NCBI GenBank assembly: GCA_949987705.1
Contig: OX465283.1
Location: 72,301,720-72,365,719, forward strand
DNA: 64,000 bases
DNA from: Thereva unica
Lineage: Eukaryota > Arthropoda > Insecta > Diptera > Therevidae
Direction of reading: 5' to 3'
Position numbers and translations under genes: made by a program. Shown here one piece after another: positions 22,090 through 39,920 of this stretch (within the stretch, counting starts at the first letter, position 1; every line of letters starts with the position of its first letter). The notes under the pieces were generated by a model. It did not search any database and was not told the DNA's origin. It saw only the letters and a program-made list of their open reading frames with translations.

Positions 22090-22876
22090 TCCGAGAGCCG
22101 ACTGAAGAAAACCCTATGTTATCGGGAAGAAGAAAACGAAACCTATAGTAAGTAACATTAGAGATAGGAGAATATTTTAGGCTTGGTGTGCCTGAACTAA
22201 AGTGTGGCCTAAGGTGAGAAATTAGGTAATATTAGTGGTGGATTTTTAGTCCAACCCTATGTTATCGGCAAGAAGGATAATTTTTGTTTTAAAATGAAGT
22301 ATATACCAAATAATTACTAAAACTCATGGTGTGCCGCGCCCTGCCTGTGGCCGGACCTTTGGCAGACCACTGTTTGTACCACATATTTTTGGGTCGATGC
22401 CTATGTTATCGACAAGAAGGATAATTTTTTTTTTAAATTGAAGATTAGACGTCATACTAACTAAAATTCATGGTGTGCCGCGCCCTGCCTGTGGCCGGAC
22501 CTTTGGCAGACCACTATTTGTATAACGTTTTTGGGGTCCATCCCTATGTTATCGGCAAGAAGGATATTTTTTGTTTTAAAATGAAGTATATACCTAATAA
22601 TTACTAAAACTCATGGTGTGCCGCGCCCTGCCTGTGGCCGGACCTTTGGCAGACCACTATTTGTATAATTTTTTTGTATGGAATTTTTTTTAAATCGCGA
22701 TATCTCCAAAACGGTCACTCGTAGAGAAAAAGGTGTAAAGACCTTTTTTGTAGAGAATCACATAATCTACAATCCTGGCATTACCTCTTCTGTGGTCACA
22801 CTTACCGTTTACGAGATATTTGTAAAAAACTGTTTTCGCAACCTTTGACATTGAAAACCTTTTTTTGTGCACACGA
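22090..22876. repeat. left arm, tandem subrepeats of about 140 bp
   Basis: Three units each contain CCCTATGTTATCGGCAAGAA, TTAAAATGAAGTATATAC and GGCCGGACCTTTGGCAGACC. The inner end (22691-22876) includes CGATATCTCCAAAACGGTCA. All of it recurs in inverse at 23547-24190. Confidence 0.8.
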
Positions 22877-23378
22877 ACCTATGTAAGAAGTAAAAACCGT
22901 CAATAATATCTACATCTATTTCATTTGGAAATTGAGGTTGTGTAAAAGATTTAAGTTTTACCCCAAGAGCTGCTTTATCTGCTTTATACATTTCACCAGT
23001 ACAATGACATAAAGCGGGGGGAGCTGGAGATAGAGGAAAGGATAAACAGAACTGCATATTAACTTTTTTCTCTGGTGCTATTGCTAATAGTCGACCAAAG
23101 ATGTCGCGTTCCATTTTCATTAATATGTTTTTTTTCCCATCATAACTTTTCACGGTTTTTTTGACACATTCCGCAGCAAAATTTTGTACTTTAGTACGCT
23201 TGATAGGTTTCTCAAACCGCCCAGCATCGACATTACACTCTTCTATAAATTGTAACTTTTTTCTTTCGCCTATTTTATAAGTATTTAGCAAAAAGTCGGC
23301 AGTTTCATCTGTAACTGCCCTCCCCGTTGTGATGTTGAACAAACATTCAAGGTGCATTGTTCTGTCAAATGGACTCAT
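22809..23378 (-). CDS. uncharacterised protein in the centre of the foldback-like element
   Basis: Starts MSPFDRTMHLECLFNITTG, 189 aa. The central part has MKMERDIFGRLLAIAPEKK and a Pro-rich LSFPLSPAPPALCHCTGEM, then DVDIIDGFYFLHRF. I recall similar strings in unnamed repeat-associated proteins of arthropods and cnidarians, but I cannot assign a function. The last 22 residues (below 22876) come from the inverted arm, so the natural C-terminus is unclear. There is no transposase signature that I recognise. It is the only coding candidate in this element. Confidence 0.5.
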   Translation of the reverse strand: MSPFDRTMHLECLFNITTGRAVTDETADFLLNTYKIGERKKLQFIEECNVDAGRFEKPIKRTKVQNFAAECVKKTVKSYDGKKNILMKMERDIFGRLLAIAPEKKVNMQFCLSFPLSPAPPALCHCTGEMYKADKAALGVKLKSFTQPQFPNEIDVDIIDGFYFLHRFVCTKKGFQCQRLRKQFFTNIS

Positions 23379-23546
23379 GTTCTTTTTGACGTTTTCTACT
23401 ATATTTTGTAACGCTTTTCTATCCTTTTCTATTCGATGTATTTGTAATTCAATCTGCGAAAATAATGCAAGTTATGGTTTCTTAACGGAATTATCTTTAT
23501 ATTGGTTCCAGACATACTGTGTCAAACGCCCATTGCGAAATCGTGT

Positions 23547-24190
23547 GCACAAAAAAAGGTTTTCAATGTCAAAGGTTGCGAAAATAGTTTTTTACAAATA
23601 TCTCGTAAACGGTAAGTGTGACCACAGAAGAGGTAATGCCAGGATTGTAGATTATGTGATTCTCTACAAAAAAAGTCTTTACACTTTTTTCTCTACGAGT
23701 GACCGTTTTGGAGATATCGCGATTTAAAAAAAATTCCATACAAAAAACGTTATACATAGGGGTCTGCCAAAGGTCCGGCCATGCCAAAGGTCCGGCCACA
23801 GGCAGGGCGCGGCACACCATGAGTTTTAGTAATTATTAGGTATATACTTCATTTTAAAACAAAAATTATCCTTCTTGCCGATAACATAGGGATGGACCCC
23901 AAAAACGTTATACAAATAGTGGTCTGCCAAAGGTCCGGCCACAGGCAGGGCGCGGCACACCATGAGTTTTAGTAATTATTTGGTATATACTTCATTTTAA
24001 AACAAAAATTATCCTTCTTGCCGATAACATAGGGTTGGACTAAAAATCCACCACTAATATTACCTAATTTCTCACCTTAGGCCACACTTTAGTTCAGGCA
24101 CACCAAGCCTAAAATATTCTCCTATCTCTAATGTTACTTACTATAGGTTTCGTTTTCTTCTTCCCGATAACATAGGGTTTTCTGCAGTCG
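23547..24190. repeat. right arm of the foldback-like element (inner part)
   Basis: Inverted copy of 22090-22876 with two and a half of the same units. The arm continues as 24191-24350 plus 39886-39915 with the Polinton inserted in it. Confidence 0.75.
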
Positions 24191-24350
24191 GCTCTCGGAC
24201 TGTGCAATTCATGTAAATGTAAATTTTATCACAAATGGTAGAAAACTCCCCAAACCTGAAAATATTCGGGAAACCCTCAAGTGAAATATTTTGCAACATG
24301 CTAAAAAACTATTGAAAAGTCGTCCTCTTTAAATTTCAGAAAATCCCGAC

Positions 24351-25230
24351 AGTAGTAGAGCTATGCCGGTTCTAAGCCACCTCTCAGGTGGCCCCGTACC
24401 GGCCTAGGATTTGGGGGGGTCTGAAAGCTCTACATGTACGTGCACGAGGTGTTTTAGGTTTGTGTCTTGGATAAGGTGGCTTGAAAGCTCTTCATGTATG
24501 GGTATGAGGTGTGAAGGTGGCTTAGAGTTGGTGTGTGGAGATGGGTGAAAGCTCTTCATGTACGTGTACGAGGTGTTTTAGGTTTGTGTCTTGGATAAGG
24601 TTGCTTGAAAGCTCTTCATGTATGGGTATGAGGTGTGAAGGTGGCTTAGAGTTGGTGTGTGGAGATGGGTGAAAGCTCTTTATGTAGGTGTACGAGGTGT
24701 TTTAGGTTTGTGTCTTGGATAAGGTGGCTTGAAAGCTCTTGATGTGGGTGTATGAGGTATTTTTTGGTGTGAGTCCTGGATAAGGTGGCTTACAGTTGGT
24801 GGTTGGAGATGGGTGAAAGTTCTGGTCTTGGATGTGGTGTAGAACCGGCATGGGATTTGGGGTGTGACTGAAAGCTCTGGATGTAAGTTTGTGTCTTGGA
24901 TGGGGTGGCCCAGAGCAGGCATGGGATTTGAAGGTGGTGCAGAAATGGCATGGGATATGACCCAGAGCAGGATTTGAAGGTGGCGCAGAACGGGCATGGA
25001 ATTTGGTCCCAGAGCAGGAATTGAAGGTGGCGCAGAACCGGCATGGAATTTGGTCCAGAGTGGGGGAACTATGAACTGAGCTGTGGGGGATTTGAGCTTT
25101 GGTTTCGAGATGATGATTTTTTCTAGTATTAATTCCGGTAGCAACTTGTGCTATGAAATGAGCTTGGATTCTGGAGCAAAATATACAAATAATTTGGTGA
25201 AGAACTGGACTTGCAAGTAACACTAAGAAT
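24351..25230. repeat. Polinton left terminal inverted repeat
   Basis: The outermost part is followed by tandem units of about 127 bp carrying GAAAGCTCTTCATGTA and TTGGATAAGGTGGCTT. Similarity with the right repeat extends to about 25230 (AATTAAATTAAGCTTTAGCT). Frames across it are repeat artefacts. Confidence 0.85.
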
Positions 25231-26159
25231 TAAATTAAGCTTTAGCTGGAGCCAGCCTCAAGTCACAGATATTACAACAACCGCAACTTGAAATTACTAA
25301 GTGACTAAAAAAGCCATACCTGAAAAAGATATTGCATAGTTTTAGGAGCAAACAAATTCAGCATATTTTTCAAGTATTAATTCTGGTAGCAACTTAGGCT
25401 ATGGAATGAGCTTGGATTCTAGAGCAAAATATACATATAATTCAGTGAAGAACTGGACTTTCAAGTAACACTAAGCTTTAGCTGAGATCCAGCATTGGGT
25501 CTGGACAACAACCCGGTGCGATCTGTAAGCTAAGATCTGGATTGCAACCATATGTCATTATTACCTTCCAAAGAATTCTTAATGAAAATACTCACCTCAA
25601 GTCGCAGATATTACAGCAATCGCAACTTACTAAGTGGGCAAGAAAATCATATCTGAAAAAGATATTTCCGATAACAACAACAACAACAACAACAATACAG
25701 CTAAGATTCCCATTCTCATCACACTTATGATGTAATTATTATTATCCTGAACATGCTGGATATATTTTTAAAGAATAAAATTGAATACTTTAAACTAAAA
25801 TACCCTTCACAAACCGCAAATATTGCAAACACTAGAAAGTGGCATAAGCTGCCACAAAAATACTTAACGTAAACTCAGTCACATACTAAAAACAATGAAG
25901 ATTCCCTTATACCATAATTATTCGATCCTGAACGAATTGGATAAATACTATTATTTAAACTGATCACCTTAAGTGCTAATTAGACCGAAACCAACTGCTG
26001 AAATATTTAACTAAGTTAAGGTATTAAAAAGAATTGTTGTAGTTGTAATAGCTACAAATTAAAAAAAACTATTAATTAGAACACATATTATTTTGCTTTT
26101 TATTCTGATAAATCGCACAATTATTTATTTATTTCAGACACAGCACAGTATTATTATTA
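25231..26159. other. Polinton noncoding spacer
   Basis: No gene. It holds two or three copies of a segment with GCAGATATTACA and GAAAAAGATATT, and A/T-rich sequence with an AAC microsatellite near 25675-25695. Confidence 0.6.
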
Positions 26160-26543
26160 TTATTCACCTGGAAATTTCCTTTTCTTGTTGTTAGGATTAT
26201 AAAAATTAGGGATTTCACTTGAATTATCAGCATAAAAACTATAATTAACTGAGGCGGCATCAATTTGTACAAACTTTAATATATATGTCCTCCCCTGCGG
26301 TCCAGAATTGATTACGTGGAAATTTCCTTTGTTGCTGATGTCTTGTAAGGCTGCATCAGAAAGTGAACTGTACCTGGCTGGTAGCAAAAGCTGATGCTCC
26401 TTTAACTCGAGATGAATCCGAACACCATACACTGTTTCAAGCCTGCTTGCAGATTTTATTTTATATGGGGTTCGAAACTCCATGTCAGACATCCTTAAGT
26501 ATGGTGAGTATTCCAAGCTTTTGAGTTCTGTTGCTGTATCCAT
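26160..26543 (-). CDS. uncharacterised Polinton protein, 127 aa
   Basis: It starts at an ATG (MDTATELKSLEYSPYLRMSD). The predicted fold is mostly beta, with MEFRTPYKIKSASRLETVYG, HLELKEHQLLLPARYSSLSD and a basic tail (NNKKRKFPGE). The run 'tyG-xx-ixxel-xxx-xxLPaRYs' resembles short proteins I recall from insect mobile elements, perhaps an OB-like nucleic-acid binder, but that is a guess. It is the only gene left of PolB and is divergent from it. A TATATAAT on the minus strand (26617-26624) lies about 75 bases upstream. Confidence 0.6.
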   Translation of the reverse strand: MDTATELKSLEYSPYLRMSDMEFRTPYKIKSASRLETVYGVRIHLELKEHQLLLPARYSSLSDAALQDISNKGNFHVINSGPQGRTYILKFVQIDAASVNYSFYADNSSEIPNFYNPNNKKRKFPGE

Positions 26544-26673
26544 GTTTCTGGGGCTGATGCTGTTGATCTCCAGGTGGTTGGGGTTGAACTGCTAGCGTTC
26601 TCCTTCACAGTTCTCATTATATACCCTAAATCTAGAAACATGATTGAACTTGTCCATGAGTCCGCAGCACATA

Positions 26674-26979
26674 GATGCACCTGTCTAAACAACTTTGGGG
26701 TGGAAGTTTTCATGATGCACCTGTGTAAACAACTTTTGGGGCCTAGGAATTCGCTACGTCAGCAGTTTTTGCACCTGCGTGAGAAAGCTATAGACCGGAA
26801 GTTGGTAAATTGAATTGAATTCCATGCACCTGTGTAAACAACTTTTGGGGGAAGGGGTAGGGATTTGCCTGTCTGTGACTATGGTGATGCAATTCCATCT
26901 AAGACAGCCGGATACCGGAAGTTGGTAAATTTTGTACTTGTCCATGAGTTCCATGCACCTATGTAAACAACACTTAGGG
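26674..26979 (+). repeat. four direct repeats in the divergent promoter region
   Basis: Near-copies of ATGCACCTGTGTAAACAACT then TTTGGGG start near 26674, 26714, 26823 and 26952, all in one orientation. GAAGTTGGTAAATT also occurs twice. They lie between the divergent 127-aa ORF and PolB and could be binding sites. Confidence 0.75.
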
Positions 26980-27045
26980 TCAGGAATTTGCTACATAGGC
27001 AGATTTGCATGCTCGAACTTGTTCATGTTGTGCAATTGCGGGTAT

Positions 27046-27053
27046 TATAAAAG
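27046..27053 (+). promoter_or_regulatory. TATA box of PolB
   Basis: TATAAAAG lies 178 bases before the chosen PolB ATG. A CAGT-like initiator string follows about 25-30 bases downstream. Confidence 0.5.
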
Positions 27054-27230
27054 AAGCAGTAGCAGTAGTATTTTCACAGTTTACAACGAGCATCCCGCGA
27101 GTTAACTAGTAAAGTGTTATTAATTACGACTCCTGCTAATACTGGTGATTTTAACAGTGAGCATCCAACCAATTTAACAAGTGCTAAGTGAAAAGTTTTG
27201 TTTTTGTTATTAATTATTATAACTTTTAAA

Positions 27231-30200
27231 ATGGATACACGCAGTATAATGAGTGGACTAAAAAAGCAAGCAGCAGATTGCTTAAGGGACAGAGACGCTG
27301 CGCAAAGTGTTATTATTACAAAGGTGTGTGGTTTATTCATTAAAAAAATAAAAGCAGCATGCAGGGCCGAAAAGCAGATTGGGACCAAACAACACTATCA
27401 AAATTGTATTGCGCAACTAAGAGGTTTACAAGTATTGTTGAAAGCTGGCAGCAGCCACCATGGAGCAGGTGTGCAGGAAGGAGGAAGAAGTGAAAAAAGA
27501 AGTGCTCGTGTACGCTGGGAAGAGCTGCATAATGCGTTTGCAGCACGAATCAGGACAGGCGTCATCATTAATATAAAGCACATCGAAGTGAAGCAATTTT
27601 TAAAGGATGGTTATGCTTTGTTTGAGCGGCGCGTTAAGAACATTTTAAAGAAGCATAATTTCGTCAAGACATCAACGACTTTAAGCTGCGAGTATGTTAA
27701 GCATGGTGTCAATGATGGTGATATTATAAGCGACATAAAATACTTTCACACCAAAACTACACCCATTGGGAGCACCGATGATCTGGAACAGTGGTTTTTG
27801 AAAAACGTGCAGGATGATCTATTGACCCAAGTTGAGGAGTTCCAAGAGAAAGATAGCGGCTGGGCTTTACATACCATAGTGAACTTAATGGTGCACATAA
27901 ACAAATACGAGCCATTAAGAGGATCGTCATTTATAAAATTGCCGCAAAGCATCGCAGCAAAGCATGCATGCGTAAATGTGAGGAATAATGATAATGCATG
28001 CTTTGCGTGGGCTGTGGTCTCTGCTTTGTATCCAGTAGAGTATAGGGATCACGCATATAGAACATCAAAGTACCCGCACTACAACAATGTGCTAAACTTG
28101 AGCGGTATCACTCTTCCAGTTACACTGAGTCAAATAAAAATATTTGAAGCAAACAATTGATTATCGATTAATGTTTTCATACTGGAAAAGGAAAAGACAA
28201 ATGAATACACGACTGTTCCAGCTTACTTAACGAAGAAGAAATTGGATAAACACATCAACCTGCTAATGATAAAGTCAAATTATGACTGCAGTGAGGATGG
28301 TGATGATAGTGACGGTGATAGTGATATTGTTTATCATTTCTGCTGGATTAAAGACTTATCACGTTTGGTGAGCAGGCAGACGTCTAAAAACGAACACAAA
28401 AAATATATCTGCGATAGATGTTTATTTTATTTTTATACTGAAGAAATGCTCGCAGCACATGTGTCTGAGTGTGAAAAGGTGAATGACTGTAAAGTTGCTT
28501 TTCACAAGGAGAAATTTATCACTTTTAAAAATTATAATTATAAGAATCCAGTGCCATTTACAGTATATGCAGATTTGGAGTCGGTATTGATACCTGTTAC
28601 CGATGGTGGTAGTAATGGTGATAAGACGAGAAAAATTCAAGAACATGAAGTTCATAGTATTGGATTATATTTTCACTGCTACTACGATGACTCTTTATCA
28701 TTTTACCGATCAAATCGTGGAAAAACGTGTCTTCAGTGGTTTACATTGCAGTTGCAGGAAATAGCAAATATAGCTGAAGAGAAAATAAAAGATATAAAAC
28801 CGCTAGTACCCTTATCAGTGCGGGAAAAGTGCATACAATATAACCAACCATGCTGCCATATATGCGAGAAACCCTTTGTGCTTGGCGAAACTAGAGTGAG
28901 AGATCATTGCCACCTCACAGGTAAATATCGTGGACCTGCACACAACAGCTGCAACATCAATTATAATGATTGTCGCAACATCCCAGTCATTTTCCACAAT
29001 TTATCAGGATATGATGCGCATTTCATAATCAAGGATATAGCATTAACCATACCAGGAAAAGTGGATCTTTTACCGTTGAACAAAGAGCGGTACATTTCAT
29101 TTACCAAACACATTGAAAATAGCTCCATCAAGCTGAGATTCATCGACTCTTATAGATTTATGGATGAATCTTTGGATAAACTAGCCGGACTGCTGCCTAA
29201 GGAAAAATTAAAAATAACAAAAGCTCAATGGCAAGACCTGGATGATGAAAGCTTCAACCTTCTCACGCGCAAAGGAGTTTTTCCATATGACTTCATCGAT
29301 GGTTGGGATAAATTGGAGAGTAATAGTTTACCTAGCGTGGAGCATTTTTATAATAAAATGATTGATGAGCCGATAACTGAAAAAGATTATGAACATGCGC
29401 AAAAAGTGTGGGAAAAATTTAACATTAAAAGCCTGGGAGAGTATTCAGATTTGTATTTAAAAACAGATGTTCTTCTGCTGGCGGATATTTTTACAAATTT
29501 TAGAGCTATGGGACTGGAGACTTACAAACTTGACCCTGCACACGTCTTCACACTGCCTGGATATACATGGGCAGCGATGCTGTATTACACGGGAGTGCGC
29601 TTAGAAAGGATAATGGATGTTGACATGCTTTTATTTATTGAAAAATCTTGCCGAGGTGGAATTAGCCAATGCTGCTGCAGATATAGTGAAGCCAACAATA
29701 AATATATGAAAAACTTTAAACCGGATGAAGAAACTAAATATCTGATGTACTATGACGTGAATAATTTATATGGATGGGCCATGTCGCAATCACTTCCAAC
29801 CGGAAACTTTAAATGGATTGATAATGTTGATGTTATGAGTGTTGATGATAATTCACCGATCGGCTATATGTTGGAGGTAGATCTTGAATACCCGCAGGAG
29901 CTGCATAATTTGCATAAAGATTTTCCATTTTGCCCCACTCATTCAGCACCACCAGGATCAAAACAAGGCAAACTTTTAACCACTTTACACACCAAAGAAA
30001 AATATGTTATACATTACCGCAACCTAAAACAATGTTTATCACATGGACTAATACTCAAGAAAATTCACCGCATTCTGCAGTTCGATCAATCACCATGGCT
30101 TAAACCATATGTGGACTTAAATACAGATAAAAGGAAACAAGCCAAAAATGCCTACGAGAAGAACCAATATAAGAAAATAATTAATGCTGTTTTCGGAAAA

Positions 30201-30992
30201 ACTATGGAAAATGTGCGAAAATATTCAAACATAAAACTATGTACAAAGTGGGAGGGGCGGTATGGCGCTAGAAACCTCATTGCAGCACCGAATTTCCATA
30301 GTCGCACAATTTTCAATGAAAATTTAGTAGCAGTTGAATTACGAAAGCTGGTAGTTAAATTCGATAAACCATTATACATTGGTATGGCGATTCTCGATAT
30401 TTCTAAAATAGCACTGTACGAATTCCATTATGACTTTATGCTAAAAGAGTTGGATGCTGATAAATGCAAAATAATGTACATGGATACGGATTCATTAGTA
30501 TATGAAATAAAAAATGTTGACATATACAATATTATGAAGAAAAACATAGATAAATTTGATACTAGTGATTATCCTATGACCAACCAGTTTAATATGCCGC
30601 AAGCAAATAAAAAAGTTCCTGGATTGATGAAAGATGAATTAAATGGCCGAATAATGACATTGTTTGTAGGCTTAAGGTCTAAAATGTACTCCCTTGAAAT
30701 AGATGGTGTTGATGAAGTGAAGAAAGCAAAAGGGGTAAAGAAGAACGTTGTGGCGAAAACTTTGCAGATTAGCGACTATATTGAATGTTTGCAAAATTCA
30801 AAAAGCAAGATAGCTGAGCAAAAAAGCATTCGTTCATATAGTCATAAAGTGTACACTTTAAACCAAGCAAAGATCGCTTTAAACCCACAGGATGATAAAC
30901 GCTGCATTATGGACAACGGGATCGACACTCTACCATGGGGACATTTTTCAGTGCAGCAGCAGCAGCAGCAAGAAGACATGGATGTAGAATAA
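27231..30992 (+). CDS. protein-primed DNA polymerase B of the Polinton (one internal stop)
   Basis: I start at ATG 27231 (MDTRSIMSGLKKQA). 1253 codons run in a single frame, broken only by TGA at 28158-28160 (codon 310). The N-terminal region (to about 430) is Polinton-specific. A 3'-5' exonuclease follows: Exo I VYADLESVL near 445, Exo II FHNLSGYDAHF near 590, Exo III YSDLYLKTDVL near 740. A zinc/HNH-like insert (CCHICEK, DHCHLTGKYRGPAHNSC) lies near 540-575. The polymerase motifs are YYDVNNLYGWAMS near 845, INAVFGKTMENVR near 985 and the catalytic YMDTDSLVYE near 1085. It replicates the element from a terminal protein. It ends in a short Gln run. Every catalytic motif is intact; the single stop is the only break seen. 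Confidence 0.95.
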
Positions 30993-31047
30993 AATTCACA
31001 CAAGTGCAATATGTAAATAGTATGAATAAAAGAATAATTATAACTTT

Positions 31048-31536
31048 TTATAAAAAAAAATTTGTTTTATTTAAAAATTCCCTTATTACAAAAACATTTT
31101 TCAGAGCACATCGGCCTTCGTGTATTATGCAGGATAAGAAGCCATTTGTTGTTGTTGTTGTTGTTGATAGTTTGAGGCATCCCTCCTCTTCTACATCATA
31201 TATGGTTAGCTCCTCTCCAAATAATTCCTGAATCCATTGTTTCTTTTTAGCTCCTTTAACATAGATTATTTTATCATGCAGCAGATCTCCAACTGAATAT
31301 AGTGTGCGGTAGGGAATGTATCCATCACCCCATCTGAATCCATGGTGATTGTGTCTCAGCCACTCAACTTGTTTCTTTTCAGACCGAGTTAGATGTTTAT
31401 GTGGGAATGGTGGTTGGAATATGTAGTGCTGCATTTGATTTTCACAATTTAAAAGAGCCAATTCTTTGAAAATAAATTGATTGTTTTGTAATTTGAATCC
31501 TTGAAGATCGATGATAATGGCATCCATTTCAAGCAA
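31048..31536 (-). CDS. Polinton-associated protein, possibly RNase H-fold exonuclease-like
   Basis: 162 aa. It begins MLEMDAIIIDLQGFKLQNN; the hydrophobic strand ending D-L-Q-G-F is like the first strand of DEDD exonucleases, but the second acidic residue is absent. Conserved-looking HYIFQPPFPHKHL and WLRHNHHGFRWGDGYIPY follow. I recall such proteins beside Polinton genes and as orphan insect ORFs; the function is unknown. The last 25 residues follow a Thr run and may be read-through. It overlaps the end of the capsid ORF by eight bases, consistent with a shared minus-strand block. Confidence 0.55.
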   Translation of the reverse strand: MLEMDAIIIDLQGFKLQNNQFIFKELALLNCENQMQHYIFQPPFPHKHLTRSEKKQVEWLRHNHHGFRWGDGYIPYRTLYSVGDLLHDKIIYVKGAKKKQWIQELFGEELTIYDVEEEGCLKLSTTTTTTNGFLSCIIHEGRCALKNVFVIREFLNKTNFFL

Positions 31537-32206
31537 TTTTCCTGACTTCGTTGGTTAGAGGTGTATATTCCACTATTCGATCATGTAGCAATAAACAGTA
31601 TGCTGTTGTGTTAGTGGGAACGTTTTCCGATGTTTTGAATTCCAACCTTATATCCACAGGACCTGTTTTAATGGTTTCGTTTTGCCGAGAGCAATCAATG
31701 ACTACGATCGGAGCATCACGCATAAACTCTTCCCTTGAGAGTAGTGGCTGCAACTGGCGTCCATAGTATGAAGTTTGGAATTTTATATACATATCATATA
31801 GGAGAGCGTATTTATGAGCATCAAATTTCAAGTTCAGGTCATCATATGGGTATGATTCTGAATTCAAGTGCACTTTAACATCTGTCAGCTTGCAGTGGTC
31901 AAACTTACTGACATCCTTTGTTTTATCATTTTTACGATTTGTTTGGAGAGCTAGTATGACATATCGGGGCTTTTCCATCTGCGATGACGTTTTGACAGAC
32001 CACGTGTGATGAGTCGTTGCTGGTAGCGTGGGGTACTCGTATATGTCCCAGCTCCTAAATGGCATTTGTATTTCACGACCGCTTTCAATGATTTTATATA
32101 AAGCAATTTTCTCATGATCGGCCACATTAACATGGGGAATGGGCCACTGAAGTTTCGAGATTGAGATGTTTACATCATCTGTCGGTGATATGATATGCAT
32201 CTTCAT
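31529..32206 (-). CDS. Polinton major capsid protein, C-terminal part
   Basis: This continues the double jelly-roll capsid frame after a shift near 32195-32210. Beta-rich, with PFRSWDIYEYPTLPATTHHTW, LNLKFDAHKYALLYDMYIKF and an aromatic-rich middle, matching the second barrel of Polinton capsid proteins (recalled family). Its ATG at 32206 is internal to the original gene, so it is not a natural start. The same minus-strand block holds all structural genes. The protein would form the icosahedral shell of a Polinton virion. Confidence 0.8.
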   Translation of the reverse strand: MKMHIISPTDDVNISISKLQWPIPHVNVADHEKIALYKIIESGREIQMPFRSWDIYEYPTLPATTHHTWSVKTSSQMEKPRYVILALQTNRKNDKTKDVSKFDHCKLTDVKVHLNSESYPYDDLNLKFDAHKYALLYDMYIKFQTSYYGRQLQPLLSREEFMRDAPIVVIDCSRQNETIKTGPVDIRLEFKTSENVPTNTTAYCLLLHDRIVEYTPLTNEVRKIA

Positions 32207-32729
32207 CCATCCTGCTTCGTATTAATATGAGTTCATGTTTAGCGTTGGCGATAATTTTCTTGTAATCTTCAGCAAAGCCCAGCAATGTTTTTAGAGGGAT
32301 GCAGAAATTGAAGAATCCATAGGGGGATGTAATTGATTTATCTGGCGACCAACTAGCGTTGTATAACATGCGACTCTCATTTGGGTTTAATGATATGTAA
32401 TTTTTTAGTGTTGTTGCTATTCCAAGATTTCGAGTTCTATCAATTTCTACACCATTGATTTCATAGCGAATTTCCTCAAAGAGAAACGCTATAGCATTAT
32501 TTACTAGCCCTGCAGTGCTGGATATTGTTCTGTCAGGTTTAGTTACTGTTCCCTCAATGTATATGAAACTTTCAGCTGGGAGGATATACAGGTCTTGGTT
32601 TTGCACTGGAATGCGGGTTTCATCACTATTTTTAAATGAAGAGGCGAACGATGAGTAAGTGTGGTAGTCAATTTTTGTTATGCTATTATCATGGCTTGTG
32701 CCTTCAGTAATATCCAAGATGTTATTCAT
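32175..32729 (-). CDS. Polinton major capsid protein, N-terminal part
   Basis: Starts MNNILDITEGTSHDNSI at 32729 and holds the first barrel (IPVQNQDLYILPAESFIYIEG, VNNAIAFLFEEIRYEINGVE, ASWSPDKSITSPYGFFNFC). The pattern 'vNNaiaflFeeirYelNg' is highly typical of this family. The frame ends at 32175, overlapping the C-terminal part in another frame by about 30 bases; one indel separates them. The start overlaps the stop of a 37-aa ORF as ATGA. Confidence 0.85.
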   Translation of the reverse strand: MNNILDITEGTSHDNSITKIDYHTYSSFASSFKNSDETRIPVQNQDLYILPAESFIYIEGTVTKPDRTISSTAGLVNNAIAFLFEEIRYEINGVEIDRTRNLGIATTLKNYISLNPNESRMLYNASWSPDKSITSPYGFFNFCIPLKTLLGFAEDYKKIIANAKHELILIRSRMDEDAYHITDR

Positions 32730-32839
32730 TGCTTCAAATTTAGTCCTATTGATTTTAGAAATTGTATATTATCAGCTCTCAGTTGACGTCTTGCTCGCTT
32801 CAAGGTTGCCGGTTGACTAATGTTTTCCATGAAGTTCAT
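32726..32839 (-). CDS. small basic ORF directly before the major capsid gene
   Basis: 37 aa, starting MNFMENISQPATLKRARRQL and ending GLNLKQ. Very basic (several Arg and Lys), it could bind nucleic acid. The stop and the capsid start share ATGA. A TATAAATAGG lies only a few bases upstream of its ATG, so a transcript from that box might begin inside the ORF; whether it is translated is uncertain. I have a weak memory of similar short leaders in other Polintons. Confidence 0.45.
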   Translation of the reverse strand: MNFMENISQPATLKRARRQLRADNIQFLKSIGLNLKQ

Positions 32840-32852
32840 CCTATTTATATGC

Positions 32853-33563
32853 TTATTGCTGCTGTTGCTCCCGTAGACTATCATTCTGTGGCTTTAAATG
32901 TAGCCTGATAGTTATCGTTTCACCTCGAAAATTTATTAGATCTCCGTCCTGATCAACTAGCTTTAGTGTGAGCGAACTAACACGTTTGACGTTCACCGGT
33001 AAATAGATCACATTCGCTGGAACCTCTACTATTTTATAGCCCGGCCCCACGGTTGGGGCAAATTCATGCAGCATATGCACCTGTTTATTGTTGATGTATG
33101 AGCCTGATATGATGTTACATTCAACCCTTATAGTATTAACTTTTATAATATTGACGGGTAGATCTGATGTATGTAATATATTTGCTTCCAGTACACGTTT
33201 CCCAAATCCCAACAGCGGTGCGATAGATCGCTCTTTATCAAAATGTATAACTTCAGTAGCTTTTATTTCACTCTTCAAGGTATTATTGTTTGCCCTTATT
33301 AAGACTGTTGCCTTGCTGCTGCTCTTATTTAAGCTTTGCTGTACTGAAGCTGCTATGTCATCAATCTCGTATGATCCAACAGGTATTTCGATACACGCAT
33401 CTCCCACATGCATTAAGTTGTTGCTGTCATCAATATTCGGTATAGAATTGTATGTTTGAAAGTCAATTAATCCGCAAACGTAGTCTCCAGCTAATTCCAA
33501 TGGGGGAAAGTATTCAGCGGTGAGAACCGATGCATTGCCAGTAAGAGAGAGTGTTATCGACAT
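32853..33563 (-). CDS. Polinton minor capsid (penton-like) protein
   Basis: 236 aa from ATG 33563 (MSITLSLTGNASVLTAEYFP). The start 'lsLtGnsSvLtaeYfPPLeL' and the LIDFQTYNSIPNIDDSNN segment are the signature of the single jelly-roll penton protein that occupies the vertices. IEIPVGSYEIDDIAASVQQ and APLLGFGKRVLEAN are also typical. It ends in a short Gln run. The frame is intact. A TATAAATA on the minus strand lies about 50 bases upstream, overlapping the end of the protease gene. It sits next to the capsid gene as in other Polintons. Confidence 0.88.
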   Translation of the reverse strand: MSITLSLTGNASVLTAEYFPPLELAGDYVCGLIDFQTYNSIPNIDDSNNLMHVGDACIEIPVGSYEIDDIAASVQQSLNKSSSKATVLIRANNNTLKSEIKATEVIHFDKERSIAPLLGFGKRVLEANILHTSDLPVNIIKVNTIRVECNIISGSYINNKQVHMLHEFAPTVGPGYKIVEVPANVIYLPVNVKRVSSLTLKLVDQDGDLINFRGETITIRLHLKPQNDSLREQQQQ

Positions 33564-33609
33564 GGCTACTTGTTATGAAATGTCTATGTTTGCACTTGAA
33601 GGCCTTTAT

Positions 33610-33876
33610 TTATACATTATGTAAGAATTTTAAGCATAAGTGTCCGCAAATCACTGAGTCGAAATTTTGATGTGCTGTATAGTTGTATGTGACTGCATCA
33701 CCCAAATAATTTACAACTTCCCGCGGCGGTTGCAGATTTCCAAAACTATCAAAGTAATTTATGATATCTCCATTTTTCTTATACGCTACCCAATGCGTTC
33801 CAGGTCCAGATGAAACATCTAGATTTATAATTCCGCTCTCATTTCTCCATGGTTTTTTAGGTAATTGATCGCGCAT
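33610..33876 (-). CDS. Polinton cysteine protease (adenain/Ulp1-like), start uncertain
   Basis: Catalytic order His-Asp-Gln-Cys: GTHWVAYKK, IINYFDSFGNLQPP, HQNFDSVICGHLC. It cleaves capsid precursors during virion maturation, as in adenovirus. The first ATG (MRDQLPKKPWRNESGIINLD) lies about 30 codons into the conserved domain. The frame stays open upstream (SLPKRALNENDLRKYAQHI) into the overlapping end of the PLA2 ORF without another ATG, so the natural start may be lost or translation may be coupled to the preceding gene. The catalytic residues are all present. Confidence 0.85.
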   Translation of the reverse strand: MRDQLPKKPWRNESGIINLDVSSGPGTHWVAYKKNGDIINYFDSFGNLQPPREVVNYLGDAVTYNYTAHQNFDSVICGHLCLKFLHNV

Positions 33877-33959
33877 AAATACTCCTCTAAAGTGGGCTAT
33901 ATGCTGTGCATATTTACGCAGATCATTTTCATTGAGTGCTCTTTTGGGTAGCGACTTTA

Positions 33960-34742
33960 TTAGTTTTTTGGTTGGGTGTTGAGAAAAAGTCCCAGTCCTT
34001 TCCTATATGGCTTTAGAAATAATCCTTGTCCAGGTTTTCCTAGCGCTATAGCTTCCATTGTCTCATTATGACGTTTCGCTTCCTGCAGCTCCCGACGTGC
34101 GACACTTGCGGCGTTTACAGCTTTAGCTATACCTGCTGCACCTCCAGATAGCGCTCCAACGGCGGAAAGACCTGCAAAAAGTGGAATGAGGAACGGTAAA
34201 ACTCCTCCTACTTTAGGTACTGGTATCACTCTAGGCGTAGTGTAAGATTTTTTCTTCCCCTTGATAACATTCTTTGCCGCACTTAGGGCAATTGTAGTAG
34301 CTTCCAACAGGTCTTTCGGCTTTTTCAGCTTTAACACTTTTCTAGCATTACGTACAGCTTCGCGGAATGATGGACGTAACGTATTCTTCTTCTTCTTCGA
34401 GCAGGTAATTTTTGCTTTGACCCCCATTCCAACTTTTATTTTAGCTTTCATGGCGTTTGTTACTAATAGCGCGTTAGCACGTTCTGCAAAGCTAGCGTCT
34501 TTAGATGTTACTCGTTGCCAGGCTTTTTCTTCTAAAATACGGTCAGCTATATGTCGGTCGCTTAAGTCCTTATGATCTCGATATGCAATATCATGCTGTT
34601 TGCAAGCTGCATCTAGTGGGTTGATGCCAGGATCACCGCGGGCTAGTCTTTTAGCTAACTTTGTTCCTGGACCACAGTATTGATATCCCGGTAGATGAAG
34701 CTCAAGCGGTAACTTATTTATAACAGTGTTTAACAGTCCTCC
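33960..34742 (-). CDS. Polinton virion protein with N-terminal phospholipase A2 domain
   Basis: The open frame extends well above the first ATG (34451). Reading from about 34742 gives GGLLNTVINKLPLELHLPGY, then YCGPGTKLAKRLARG and NPLDAACKQHDIAY. These are the Ca-binding loop and the catalytic His-Asp pair of the parvovirus-type PLA2 domain that Polintons carry. A Lys-rich part (CSKKKKNTLRPSFREAVRNA) and a strongly hydrophobic Gly/Ala segment (GGVLPFLIPLFAGLSAVGAL) near the C-terminus follow, likely membrane-active. The role is probably membrane penetration during entry. No ATG lies in frame before the PLA2 part, so the start is lost or uses another route. Confidence 0.82.
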   Translation of the reverse strand, partial: GGLLNTVINKLPLELHLPGYQYCGPGTKLAKRLARGDPGINPLDAACKQHDIAYRDHKDLSDRHIADRILEEKAWQRVTSKDASFAERANALLVTNAMKAKIKVGMGVKAKITCSKKKKNTLRPSFREAVRNARKVLKLKKPKDLLEATTIALSAAKNVIKGKKKSYTTPRVIPVPKVGGVLPFLIPLFAGLSAVGALSGGAAGIAKAVNAASVARRELQEAKRHNETMEAIALGKPGQGLFLKPYRKGLGLFLNTQPKN

Positions 34743-34790
34743 CCCTTGACAGCTCTTCGATGAATGGTGCGTTTCTTACTATGGTCAATC

Positions 34791-34819
34791 ATTTTATAGC
34801 TGATTAAAATCTATAAAAG
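34791..34819. promoter_or_regulatory. back-to-back TATA boxes between the PLA2 gene and the ATPase
   Basis: ATTTTATA at 34791-34798 (TATAAAAT on the minus strand) and TATAAAAG at 34812-34819 on the plus strand lie 13 bases apart. They serve the minus-strand virion block and the plus-strand ATPase respectively. Confidence 0.6.
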
Positions 34820-34854
34820 TACGGGTATTTATAGGGATTGGGTTAGTGTGCAAC

Positions 34855-35538
34855 ATGAAGTTTACCAAGCAACAAGCGTGTCTACCAGTTAGAAATACTG
34901 ATGTGTAAATCACAAGTACATCAAAGAAGCATGGGGTGCTGCTACCAAACAGTATAAGAGGTATTATTGTTGGACCGTCGAATTGTGGCAAGACAAATGT
35001 TATGCTAAGTCTACTGGAGCATCCTAACGGTCTGAGATTCGAGAATATATACATTTACTCAAAGTCGCTAAGTCAGCCGAAATACGAGTATTTAGGAGAA
35101 GTTGTAGCTCACATATCAGGTTTGGGCTATTATACGTTTTCTAACAACCACGATGTTATACCACCGGAGGAAGCAAAGCCAAACTCAATTTTCATCTTTG
35201 ATGATGTAGCCTGCGATAAACAAAATAATATTAGAGCCTACTTTTGTATGGGGAGGCATAACGACATTGACAGCTTTTACCTCTGTCAAACTTATACTCA
35301 TATACCAAAGCATCTAATCCGAGATAATGCAAACTTTCTGATCATATTCAAACAAGATGATTTGAACCTGAAGCATGTATACAATGATCATGTGAATAGT
35401 GATATGAAATTCGCAAAGTTCAGAAAAGCGTGTGCAAACTGTTGGAAAGACAAATATGGATTCTTAGTAATTGATAAGGACAGCCCCATGGGCAAAGGTC
35501 GATATCGAAAAGGCTTTGATGTATTCATGAGCCTATGA
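34855..35538 (+). CDS. Polinton packaging ATPase (FtsK/HerA-type), N-terminus broken
   Basis: The ATPase core has Walker A GPSNCGKTN, Walker B SIFIFDDVA and a conserved DSFYLCQTYTHIPKHLIRDN. It would pump element DNA into capsids. The natural start is probably ATG 34855 (MKFTKQQACLPVRNTDV), 36 bases after a TATA box. A stop TAA at 34906-34908 interrupts it, and the frame resumes before LLPNSIRGIIVG without another ATG. The conserved residues between appear in a neighbouring frame, which suggests two compensating small indels. The core from 34936 on is intact. Confidence 0.88.
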
Positions 35539-35574
35539 AGGAGCCCACCTAATCAGCTGACCAGGTCTTTCAGC

Positions 35575-36120
35575 TCTGCCTGGCTGGTCTGTCTGGCTGG
35601 TCTGTCTGGTTGGTTGGCTGGTCTGTCTGGCTGGTTGGCTGGTCTGTCTGGCTGGTCTGTCTGGCTGGTTGGCTGGTCTGTCTGGCTGGTTGGCTGGTCT
35701 GTCTGGCTGGTTGGCTGGTCTGTCTGGCTGGTCTGTCTGGCTGGTTGGCTGGTCTGTCTGGCTGGTTGGCTGGTCTGTCTGGCTGGTTGGCTGGTCTGTC
35801 TGGCTGGTCTGTCTGGCTGGTTGGTTGGTCTGTCTGGCTGGTTGGCTGGTCTGTCTGGCTGGTTGGCTGGTCTGTCTGGCTGGTCTGTCTGGCTGGTTGG
35901 CTGGTCTGTCTGGCTGGTTGGCTGGTCTGTCTGGCTGGTTGGCTGGTCTGTCTGGCTGGTTGGCTGGTCTGTCTGGCTGGTCTGTCTGGCTGGTTGGTTG
36001 GTCTGTCTGGCTGGTCTGTCTGGCTGGTTGGCTGGTCTGTCTGGCTGGTCTGTCTGGCTGGTCGGTCTGTCTGTCTGTCTGGCTGGTCTGTCTGGCTGAT
36101 CTATCTGGTTGACTTGCCTG
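35575..36120. repeat. CTGGCTGGTTGG / CTGTCTGG minisatellite
   Basis: About 540 bp of CTGGTCTGTCTGG and CTGGTTGGCTGG modules in irregular order between the ATPase and the next gene. The long frames across it on both strands (Trp/Leu-rich or Asp/Gln/Pro-rich) are simple-repeat artefacts. Confidence 0.9.
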
Positions 36121-36194
36121 GTACGTCTGGATCTATATAAATGCTTATTAGCATAGCTGTATATCATTGTAGCTGTAACCACACGTGTAGCAAC

Positions 36195-37082
36195 ATGAAT
36201 GAAAAATTGATGAAGGATATTATAAAAACACGTGAGGCTATACGAAGAAAATATAAAGCTCTCAAGACTGGTAAAATTGAATCTGAAGCTCAATTAGAGG
36301 AAACATTTAAACCTATAACCAACACGCTGAAAAAGCTCACAACAACAGCAGCATCAGTGAAACTTGAACCAAAAGAAGAAGAAGATGAAATTAAGCACGA
36401 GGGCAATGAAGAAGCATACACACCACCACCACCACCACGTAAATACTTAAAGCTAGAGCCACCGAGTTATTCTGAGGATGATGATGATGATGATGATGAT
36501 GATCAGTTTGTCACACCTACAAAAGAACCAAAATTAGAGTCTGCAGACCAGATACTAAACAAATATAAACAACTACTGGAAAATGATAGCACGAGAATTG
36601 ATAAAACGTATGGAGCGTACTATAAGAACGACATGTGGAATATTGGTAATTCGAGATTAAAAGTTGATAAAGAATACTTTCTTATAGATGGCAAGCGGTA
36701 CAAGATAACTGAAGGTCTAGCTGAATTAATTTTTATGAAAAAGCCTCGAGGCTACTCAAAAGAAGACTTGTCCAATTATCAAAAAATTGTAAATGATACA
36801 TGCACCCACAGACGTGATTTTAAGGAAAACCAGCAAATAAAAGGATCAAATAGCTTCAAATATAGAAACATAATAAAAAAGTTGATTCACACTCCTCATA
36901 CTGGAACGGGAATAATGCAAATTCCAAAGAAAAATATCGATTACATATATTGGGATGACCCCAATGAGCTAGTTGATAGGCTCCGAATATTGATAGCATC
37001 GCAGCAAGCTGGAAATAATAGCCATAGTAATGAAATAGTGTCAATCATTGAGGAGTTGCGGGAAGCTGACATTATAGTATAA
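36195..37082 (+). CDS. Polinton conserved protein, DUF8207-like
   Basis: I choose ATG 36195 (MNEKLMKDIIKTREAIRRKY) because a TATATAAATG box at 36134-36143 would start transcription after the upstream in-frame ATG at 36141. About 295 aa. An N-terminal coiled coil, a Pro run (PPPPPRKYLKLEPPSY), an Asp run and a C-terminal globular domain follow (TYGAYYKNDMWNIGNSRLKV, YKITEGLAELIFMKKPRGYS, NIDYIYWDDPNELVDRLRIL). The C-terminal pattern is like a domain often found near Polinton integrases and capsid genes. The function is unknown. The frame is intact. Confidence 0.7.
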   Translation: MNEKLMKDIIKTREAIRRKYKALKTGKIESEAQLEETFKPITNTLKKLTTTAASVKLEPKEEEDEIKHEGNEEAYTPPPPPRKYLKLEPPSYSEDDDDDDDDDQFVTPTKEPKLESADQILNKYKQLLENDSTRIDKTYGAYYKNDMWNIGNSRLKVDKEYFLIDGKRYKITEGLAELIFMKKPRGYSKEDLSNYQKIVNDTCTHRRDFKENQQIKGSNSFKYRNIIKKLIHTPHTGTGIMQIPKKNIDYIYWDDPNELVDRLRILIASQQAGNNSHSNEIVSIIEELREADIIV

Positions 37083-37119
37083 ATATTCCCACCCACATAG
37101 AACTATTAACATTTCGGAA

Positions 37120-37480
37120 ATGAGCGTTGACAAGTTTGGTCGATCTTTTAAACGGCAAAAATTTAGAGCAGTGGGTGATCGCGGTCCACCTGGAATTCCT
37201 GGAAAAGACGGTCCTGCTGGACCAAAAGGAAACGGTTTCAATTTAACATCAGATGGTGACTATGATCTTACCTTGAAAAGAATCAAAAACCTATGTAGGT
37301 GATCCAAAAGAAAATGCTGACGCTGCAACCAAAAACTATGTCGACGAAGAAATACGGGAAAGCATTGACAAAGCAGTAGAGAATCTAACGATGTTCATTT
37401 ATCGCGAAATTGCGAAGATCGAAAATTATATATTCTCACACATAATTAATAAGAAGGCTGAAAATGGCATCTCTGAGTAA
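37120..37480 (+). CDS. collagen-like, fibre-type Polinton protein (one frameshift)
   Basis: Starts MSVDKFGRSFKRQKF at ATG 37120. A short Gly-X-Y stretch (GDRGPPGIPGKDGPAGPKG) is followed by FNLTSDGDYDLTLKRIKNL, then after a shift near 37297 by VGDPKENADAATKNYVDEEI and a C-terminal coiled coil. The arrangement is that of trimeric spike or fibre proteins, so a host-attachment role is plausible. A TATAAATA (37078-37085) lies upstream. The end of the gene (stop 37478-37480) overlaps the integrase start. Fewer than ten collagen triplets, so only a short stalk. Confidence 0.7.
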
Positions 37481-38390
37481 GAGGCAAGTAGTAAATGAGC
37501 TTCACAAACCTGCTCGTCGAAATTTTTCTAGGCGGAGAGTTATCATTAAAGGTCTGGATGATTTGTGGCAGGCTGACTTGGTGGAAATGGATGCATATAA
37601 ACATGTAAACAAAGGATTCCGCTACTTACTGACTGTAATTGATGTATTTTCTAAATATGCCTGGGCTATGCCAATTAAAAGAAAAACCGGTCCAGAAGTC
37701 ACAGAAGCGATGCAATCAATGTTTAAAGATGGGCGCATACCTAACAATTTGCAAACGGATGATGGTAAGGAATTCTACAACTCTCACTTTCAAAAGCTAA
37801 TGAGCAAATATAAAATCAACCACTACTCAACATATACATCGCTTAAGGCATCAATAGTGGAAAGATTCAACCGAACTTTAAAGAGCATGATGTGGAAGGA
37901 ATTTAGCATGAATGGATCCTACAAATGGATTTCTATGATGAAAAAACTGCTATCACAATACAATGCAAAAAAACATCGAACAATTAAAATGCGTCCCTGT
38001 GATGTTAATAGGACAAATGAAAAGCTACTTCTTGCTACAGCCTATAATCACATCAAAATTGCCCCTTCACCTGCATATAAAATAGGAGACCGCGTCCGCA
38101 TAAGCAAATATAAACATCTATTTGAAAAAGGCTACACACCAAACTGGACAACTGAAATCTTTAAAATCTCCAAGGTTCAACTGACTAATCCACCGACATA
38201 TCAACTTGAGGACTACCAGGGCAACCCCATTAAAGGTGGATTCTATGAAAAGGAATTGCAGAAAGTTAAACATTCAGATCTCTACCTAGTTGAAAAAATA
38301 TTGAAAAAGAGCGGTGATAAAGTTTATGTTAAATGGTTGGGGTTCTCACGAGAACATAATTCTTGGATAAATGCTAATGATGTATTATAA
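37464..38390 (+). CDS. Polinton retroviral-type integrase with chromodomain
   Basis: 308 aa, intact. It begins MASLSKRQVVNELHKPARRN. The DDE core is LWQADLVEMDAY (Asp near 36), LQTDDGKEFYN (Asp near 99) and ASIVERFNRTLKSMMW (Glu near 132). An SH3-like C-terminal part follows (YKIGDRVRISKYKHLFEKGY), then a chromodomain (YLVEKILKKSGDKVYVKWLG then FSREHNSWI) that may guide insertion to marked chromatin. It inserts the element and makes the 6-bp duplication seen at the ends. It is the best preserved gene here. Confidence 0.95.
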   Translation: MASLSKRQVVNELHKPARRNFSRRRVIIKGLDDLWQADLVEMDAYKHVNKGFRYLLTVIDVFSKYAWAMPIKRKTGPEVTEAMQSMFKDGRIPNNLQTDDGKEFYNSHFQKLMSKYKINHYSTYTSLKASIVERFNRTLKSMMWKEFSMNGSYKWISMMKKLLSQYNAKKHRTIKMRPCDVNRTNEKLLLATAYNHIKIAPSPAYKIGDRVRISKYKHLFEKGYTPNWTTEIFKISKVQLTNPPTYQLEDYQGNPIKGGFYEKELQKVKHSDLYLVEKILKKSGDKVYVKWLGFSREHNSWINANDVL

Positions 38391-38418
38391 ATTAAATAAA
38401 AAGTAAAATAAAAATTTT

Positions 38419-38649
38419 TTATAACAAATTTGTTTTATTTTCAAATCTTATGCTATATATTTTTTCACGATGATGTTGGTTTAATATGGACTCTAGGATT
38501 TTGCCTGTATTGATGACTCTCTGTTGAAATCTGCATCTATCAAGGGCACTTATATACCATTGCCCCATACGGCTAGCTCTATAAGCGAAATCCCATACAT
38601 GCATAATGTGTAATTCAGGCGCTAGTGTAAATCGAACCCTTTTCTGCAT
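38419..38649 (-). CDS. PPP1R15/GADD34/ICP34.5-like protein (captured eIF2-alpha phosphatase regulator)
   Basis: Starts at ATG 38649 with MQKRVRF, a canonical PP1-docking KVxF/RVxF motif. HIMHVWDFAYRASRMGQWYI and DRCRFQQRV follow. This order (RVRF, His, Trp, AYR-AR-G-W, DR-RF-RI) is the conserved C-terminal domain of PPP1R15A/B, insect Gadd34, herpesvirus ICP34.5 and ASFV DP71L, which recruit PP1 to dephosphorylate eIF2-alpha and restart translation after stress or infection. The ORF overlaps the end of a Cys-rich ORF (38622-38924) by 28 bases in another frame. Either it is translated on its own or a small indel in the A-run at 38640-38643 split a longer protein. It lies between integrase and the right terminal repeat, on the minus strand. 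I infer the role from motif order only. Confidence 0.75.
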   Translation of the reverse strand: MQKRVRFTLAPELHIMHVWDFAYRASRMGQWYISALDRCRFQQRVINTGKILESILNQHHREKIYSIRFENKTNLL

Positions 38650-38924
38650 TCTCTACAGCTGCTTTTGGTGATCCGGACATAAAAATTTACTAGGCGTTGA
38701 ACTTCCCGTTTGTACCGCTCCACAAAACAGCATCCACATGTATCTGGTCCACAAGTTGTTTTATCGTTCGACCATGGGCAGTTCTTGTAATGTGCTCCAT
38801 GTATAGAATAAACTTTTCCAGCATTTTCGTATTCTTGAACATATCTATAGAGTTGTTCTATTTTACCCTTATGCTCCTCCAACAGTATACTAGAATATTC
38901 TTCGAGAAATTTTGGTATGCTCAT
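38622..38924 (-). CDS. Cys-rich protein upstream of the PPP1R15-like ORF
   Basis: 100 aa, starting MSIPKFLEEYSSILLEEHKG. An alpha-helical first half is followed by a cluster with HYKNCPWSNDKTTCGPDTCG and CC, then FVERYKREVQRLVNFYV and a final CRECRK. The Cys/His spacing suggests zinc binding. I do not recognise the family. It may be the N-terminal half of the PPP1R15-like protein separated by a frameshift, or a separate gene of the same transcript. Confidence 0.55.
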   Translation of the reverse strand: MSIPKFLEEYSSILLEEHKGKIEQLYRYVQEYENAGKVYSIHGAHYKNCPWSNDKTTCGPDTCGCCFVERYKREVQRLVNFYVRITKSSCRECRKGFDLH

Positions 38925-38926
38925 AT

Positions 38927-39109
38927 TTACTTATCTTTTATCTGCTGATATCTTATGGATGAAGAAGTATCTTTACTCTCAGATGATGATGATGATGATT
39001 GCTTCGATTTAATTGATAGAGAATTCAGTTGATATTTTAATTCTTTTACTTTGCTTCCTTTATCACCCTTTTCCTCAAGCAATCTGGTAGAATCCTTATA
39101 ACTGTTCAT
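38927..39109 (-). CDS. small Ser-rich ORF
   Basis: Starts MNSYKDSTRLLEEKGDKGSK and contains a Ser run. 60 aa, low complexity at the end. A TATATAAA on the minus strand (39154-39161) lies about 50 bases upstream and would start a transcript covering this ORF, the Cys-rich ORF and the PPP1R15-like ORF. Whether it is translated is unknown. Confidence 0.4.
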   Translation of the reverse strand: MNSYKDSTRLLEEKGDKGSKVKELKYQLNSLSIKSKQSSSSSSESKDTSSSIRYQQIKDK

Positions 39110-39189
39110 CACCGCAACCGGAAGAAAACTAACCTAACATTCCCCCTTCAAGGATTTATATACATAATAATTGAATCAAAGATCATTAC

Positions 39190-39879
39190 AAAAGATCCCT
39201 CAAGAGCTTCTTTAATTCTTAATTCAACTAGCTTCCCACAGCTGGCGCTCACATCTCGCACCAACTTCCCACCCCATGCCGGTTCTGGGCCACGCAAACA
39301 TACATCCAGAGCCTTAAGTCACATCCCCAAATCCCATGCCAGCTCTGGGCCATATCCCATGCCGGTTCTGCGCCACCCTATCCAAGAAACATACATCCAG
39401 AGCTTTAAGTCACACCTCAAATCCCATGCCAGCTCTGGACCAAATCAACACCGAAATTCAACTAGCTTCCCACAGGTGGCACTCAACAACACAGCTTTCA
39501 GTCACACCCCAAATACCACCCCGGTCCCACACCAAATCCCATACACGCTCTGGACCACCCATCTCCATCCACCAACTCCAAGCCACCCCATCCAAGACAC
39601 CCAACCTCCATAAACAGCTTTCAAACCACCTTACCCAAAACCCAAACCCAAAACATCTCGTACACGTACATAAAGAGCTTTCACCCATCTCCACACACCA
39701 ACTCTAAGCCACCTTCACACCTCATACCCATACATGAAGAGCTTTCAAGCCACCTTATCCAAGACACAAACCTAAAACACCTCGTGCCACGTACATGTAG
39801 AGCTTTCAGACCCCCCCAAATCCTAGGCCGGTACGGGGCCACCTCCTAGGTGGCTTAGAACCGGCATAGCTCTACTACT
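39190..39879. repeat. Polinton right terminal inverted repeat
   Basis: Inverse of 24351-25230 with fewer tandem units: TACATGAAGAGCTTTCAAGC, AAGCCACCTTATCCAAGACA, GGCCGGTACGGGGCCACC (both versions near the tip). It ends at CTCTACTACT 39879. Confidence 0.85.
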
Positions 39880-39920
39880 CCCGACGACTACAAAACTATC
39901 AGAAATATTATTAATCTATT

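Follow-up and report, generated by a model that had tools for sequence, protein, structure and literature searches.

Can a Polinton carry a host-derived gene of the kind with which viruses reverse translational shut-off? The question is raised by a 64,000-nucleotide stretch of Thereva unica contig OX465283.1 (the window), in which an end-to-end Polinton carries a small open reading frame (ORF), termed here R15, between its integrase and its right terminal repeat (Table 1). The original prediction had recognised in this minus-strand ORF a PP1-docking RVRF motif followed by the conserved core of PPP1R15 proteins, and had read it as a captured gene; the ORF, its motifs and its position in a Polinton were all confirmed. 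We propose, with a probability of roughly 0.76, that R15 derives from an insect PPP1R15 (Gadd34) core which Polintons captured, that it now belongs to the regular accessory genes of several of their lineages, and that it recruits PP1 to reverse eIF2α phosphorylation.

Against Pfam-A, R15 from the window matched PF10488 over residues 26-65 with E=3e-4 and 21.0 bits, under the curated cut-off of 26.1. Its four best sequence matches in the PDB were African swine fever virus (ASFV) DP71L (7.3e-4), PPP1R15A (1.4e-3), PPP1R15B (1.9e-3) and PPP1R15A again (0.025). Taken alone, these sequence matches are moderate evidence. The same profile scored 23.6 bits at locus L028 and 31.7 bits, over the cut-off, in a sister lineage, C (L029), and it matched at E≤0.01 in 8/8 rows of an alignment of seven element-borne sequences and one host sequence. 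In all eight rows W19, R27, G29, W31, D37, R40, F41, R44 and L56 are invariant, and position L52 is Leu or, in lineage C, Ile. The docking motif, residues 4-7 of the window ORF, reads RVRF in lineages A and B, KVRF in D and KISF in C, with VRF in the host exon; in place of the GPWE or GHWE of the remaining rows, lineages A and B show GQW[YH]. Judged from these sequence comparisons, the evidence for membership of R15 in the PPP1R15-core family is strong.

The residues on which function would depend can be read from DP71L. According to excerpts of PMC5346070, PP1 binding by that protein requires V16 and F18; L57 and L61 of its LSAVL motif are dispensable for this binding but are required for eIF2α dephosphorylation. 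In the PDB-hit alignments of the window and lineage C proteins these four residues align with V5, F7, L52 and L56 of R15, lineage C having Ile at the equivalents of V5 and L52. For a phosphatase selective for phosphorylated eIF2, a core of about 70 residues is described, in excerpts of PMC10998612, as both necessary and sufficient. Because the critical residues of DP71L are kept, the invariant block is present and a core of this size is described as sufficient, R15 would be expected to recruit PP1 to phosphorylated eIF2α. In this model host PP1 would dock on the RVRF motif while the element replicates or its virions assemble, and the G-x-W/D-x-x-R-F/L-x-x-x-L region would place PP1, together with G-actin, on phosphorylated eIF2α. 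Translation would thereby be kept going while the element replicates, and the PERK/GCN2 stress response would be blocked. Insects are not known to have PKR. We infer the binding of PP1 and eIF2α, the expression of R15 and its benefit during replication.

The original prediction had proposed looking for the ORF beside integrases elsewhere, and it was found there in many other Polinton copies and in other lineages of this genome. A genome search with R15 gave 578 candidates, and 150 of the 150 scored were matches (worst listed E 4.6e-33); the scored candidates are the best-scoring part of the 578, so intactness is overstated, and at least five rows among the matches listed contain an in-frame stop. 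With PF10488 there were 488 candidates, 150 of them scored, and 151 matches; 41 listed rows, the host exon among them, were over the cut-off, the best rows coming from a lineage other than that of the window. An integrase lay in the same locus as R15 in 8/8 loci of lineage A (1.5-kb flanks), 28/30 of lineage C and 9/9 of lineages D and E, and R15 relatives also adjoin the integrase in lineages where this protein shares 64-72% identity with that of the window. In the loci read from lineages A, C and D, R15 is directly preceded by a second small ORF wherever the latter has been retained.

The presumed host gene was located by a genome pattern search for WExxAxDRxRF, which returned ten places: eight in lineage D, sharing one identical 33-base string, one in lineage E (L067) and one at C1:223370057. 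The last we take to be the host Gadd34 gene; it was seen at one place, and single-copy status is not proven. Its exon (G000:C1:223369982-223370104, L060) has an intron acceptor immediately before VRF, and its translation matched PPP1R15A in the PDB at 1.5e-7. The host protein is colinear with R15 from VRF to HR..IY..RF. Identity to the host exon is 49% over 65 aa for the window R15 and 51% over 57 aa for lineage C; in pairwise comparisons, lineages A, C and D stand at about the same distance from the host exon (44-54% identity) as from one another (36-52%). The host exon follows an intron and is presumably part of a longer gene, whereas the Polinton ORFs run uninterrupted across that position as intronless bare cores, and capture may have proceeded by way of an mRNA. 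In the comparison with host Gadd34 that the original prediction called for, the host exon was found, differs from the Polinton ORFs at about half of their residues and has an intron that they lack, but gene trees do not separate a single capture from several. Layout gives further guidance, since its sharing argues that lineages A and D inherited R15 together, as did C and E.

Could R15 instead have been picked up from host Gadd34 by accident, as an exon that the element carries along without function? It does resemble the host exon, and frameshifted copies are present and have multiplied: two copies with a shared frameshift (L090 and L091) were read. The group perhaps includes other places matched at E=3.9e-66. 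Yet R15 recurs beside the integrase in lineages A, C, D and E, lacks the host intron and has diverged from the host exon as described. Moreover, dN/dS between the window R15 and four other lineage A copies is 0.21-0.24, against lineage B it is 0.10-0.11, and for one pair inside lineage C it is 0.12. In neutral simulation, as few amino-acid changes arose in 0.18% (L027), 2.4% (L023) and 0/5000 runs (L028, L061). R15 is under purifying selection. The selection test and the recurrence already contradict chance carriage, which we regard as very improbable. Neither outcome that would have overturned the original prediction was seen, and its reading is supported: the profile matches, although under the curated cut-off for the window ORF, and the ORF is neither confined to one copy nor identical to the host exon. 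Several element families have apparently kept R15 as useful to them.

A different use is conceivable, in which R15 serves transposition or germline persistence by relieving a host stress response to the element's own replication, not defence evasion. The copies reside in the genome in large numbers, and some are almost the same in sequence, a pattern suggestive of recent spread as an element; no free virus was seen in this analysis. However, R15 shares its element with capsid, ATPase, integrase and, in lineage C, BIR/IAP genes, a set fitting infection, and the biochemistry would be the same as that proposed here; we consider this use unlikely. Several points do weigh against our proposal that R15 recruits PP1 to eIF2α. 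Excerpts of PMC8633803 and PMC7615683 place substrate recruitment upstream of the core and describe the C-terminal part as insufficient, and R15 has only four residues before VRF. The upstream eIF2-binding helix (H1 or FLKAWVY type) reported for other R15 proteins is absent from the R15 ORF, in which just MQKR precedes VRF, although a spliced or fused source is possible. The helix is not taken as a defining trait of the core family because the core of about 70 aa is described as the ancestral unit in excerpts of PMC10998612. How the ORF gets translated is unexplained, and the multiplied frameshifted copies count on the same side.

A broader reading, to which we give even odds, is that several lineages of one insect's adintovirus-type Polintons carry a compact host-takeover cassette by the integrase. 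Its constant member would be the captured GADD34 core, accompanied in some cases by an adintovirus protein rich in Cys and His and in others by a BIR protein of IAP type. Such a cassette would prevent translational shut-off and, where the BIR protein is present, apoptosis as well. Insect Polintons would then face the integrated stress response as a genuine antiviral barrier, and the gene would also have reached an element that has an IS1595-type transposase. In lineage C a BIR/IAP gene lies directly before R15 (PF00653, E=2.5e-12 in L029); the two overlap by ATGA in 30/30 loci (L029-L058), and the BIR frame is full-length in 22/30. The BIR/IAP-type ORF of L029 (1127-1504) has, by eye, a hydrophobic C-terminal stretch. 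Another lineage C copy (L054:1465-1959, minus strand) has two GADD34-like ORFs in tandem. A GADD34-like ORF closely resembling that of the Polinton is also carried by a repeated element that has an IS1595/ISXO2-type transposase (L028, L069-L072, L078, L079 and L088), the reading frame being seen in L069, L070 and L071. Loci L059, L063 and L065 are recurrent rearranged derivatives of lineage D, in which polymerase pieces flank the integrase and a shortened R15.

Among viruses, GADD34 mimics have been described for herpesviruses and ASFV; we know of none described in a Polinton. The herpesvirus protein ICP34.5 is longer than Polinton R15. By its description in excerpts of PMC8633803, it belongs to the same functional class, as a recruiter of PP1 whose C-terminus holds an R15-like core. 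DP71L in its short form was the best PDB sequence match for both the window and lineage C proteins and, like R15, is a stand-alone viral gene of about 70 aa with VRF, GxWxxxAxDxxRF and LxxxL. It differs in having 15 residues before VRF, as opposed to four, and in lacking several residues that R15 has between VRF and W; it belongs to another virus group and is presumably a separate capture. The closest Polinton/adintovirus comparison is with Drosophila-associated adintoviruses 1-3 (PMC8363768), and GADD34, PPP1R15 and phosphatase each occur zero times in the main text of that paper, as they do in PMC11071308 on eukaryotic viruses with double-jelly-roll capsids. Among the papers listed by literature searches, none showed a GADD34/PPP1R15 mimic in a Polinton, prior mention in the adintovirus proposal paper being possible. 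If the proposed function holds, it supports Polintons acting as viruses with counter-defence genes and suggests that eIF2α phosphorylation restricts DNA elements in insects. The capture of a host gene would also be documented at the genome level, and the hundreds of candidate copies would allow selection to be measured.

As for the carrier itself, terminal inverted repeats beginning 5'-AG and a 6-bp target duplication are marks of Polinton/Maverick elements, and the window element has both, the duplication CCCGAC lying at 24345-24350 and 39880-39885. Pfam matches over the cut-off were obtained for the rve integrase (PF00665), double-jelly-roll capsid (PF21738) and packaging ATPase (PF04665).

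Table 1. Features of the Polinton in the window
Feature	Position	Strand	Remarks
Polinton insertion	24351..39879	.	15,529 bp; end to end; ends 5'-AGTAGTAGAG...
Left terminal inverted repeat	24351..24930	+	internally repetitive; inner edge approximate
Putative DNA polymerase B region	27231..30992	+	two ORFs, 27231-28160 and 28266-30992; read by eye
Double-jelly-roll major capsid protein	31529..32729	-	PF21738 E=1.6e-92 and 3.4e-42
Putative minor capsid protein	32853..33563	-	from position; without Pfam match
Maturation-protease-like ORF	33610..33876	-	from sequence reading only; without Pfam match
Packaging ATPase	35002..35538	+	Pox_A32 PF04665, E=6.1e-6
ORF36, uncharacterised Polinton ORF	36141..37082	+	
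Integrase (rve core)	37464..38390	+	convergent with R15; chromodomain match under cut-off
R15, PPP1R15/GADD34-core ORF	38419..38649	-	76 aa; between integrase and right terminal repeat
Feature listed beside R15	38622..38924	-	
Right terminal inverted repeat	39351..39879	-	inner edge approximate

The capsid gene of the window copy is read in two overlapping frames (31529-32206 and 32175-32729). A protein-primed DNA polymerase B is a further mark of Polintons; a Pfam scan of the ORFs in the putative polymerase region gave no DNA-polymerase match, just Endonuclease_7 and sub-threshold matches. Near the integrase of 8/8 lineage A loci taken with flanks of 1.5 kb lies a piece of ORF36, in L002 in rearranged form. 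A further Polinton ORF (31048-31527, minus strand) matches a methyltransferase-type profile below threshold (PF10237, E=0.0022), and a relative of it adjoins R15 in lineage B. The minus-strand ORF at 35553-36167, made of simple TDQPxxQ/DRPxxQ-type repeats, is probably no gene. Just left of the Polinton, at 22500-24040, lies a separate inverted-repeat structure, its left edge clipped by the choice of region, in which the longest arms are 96-99% complementary.
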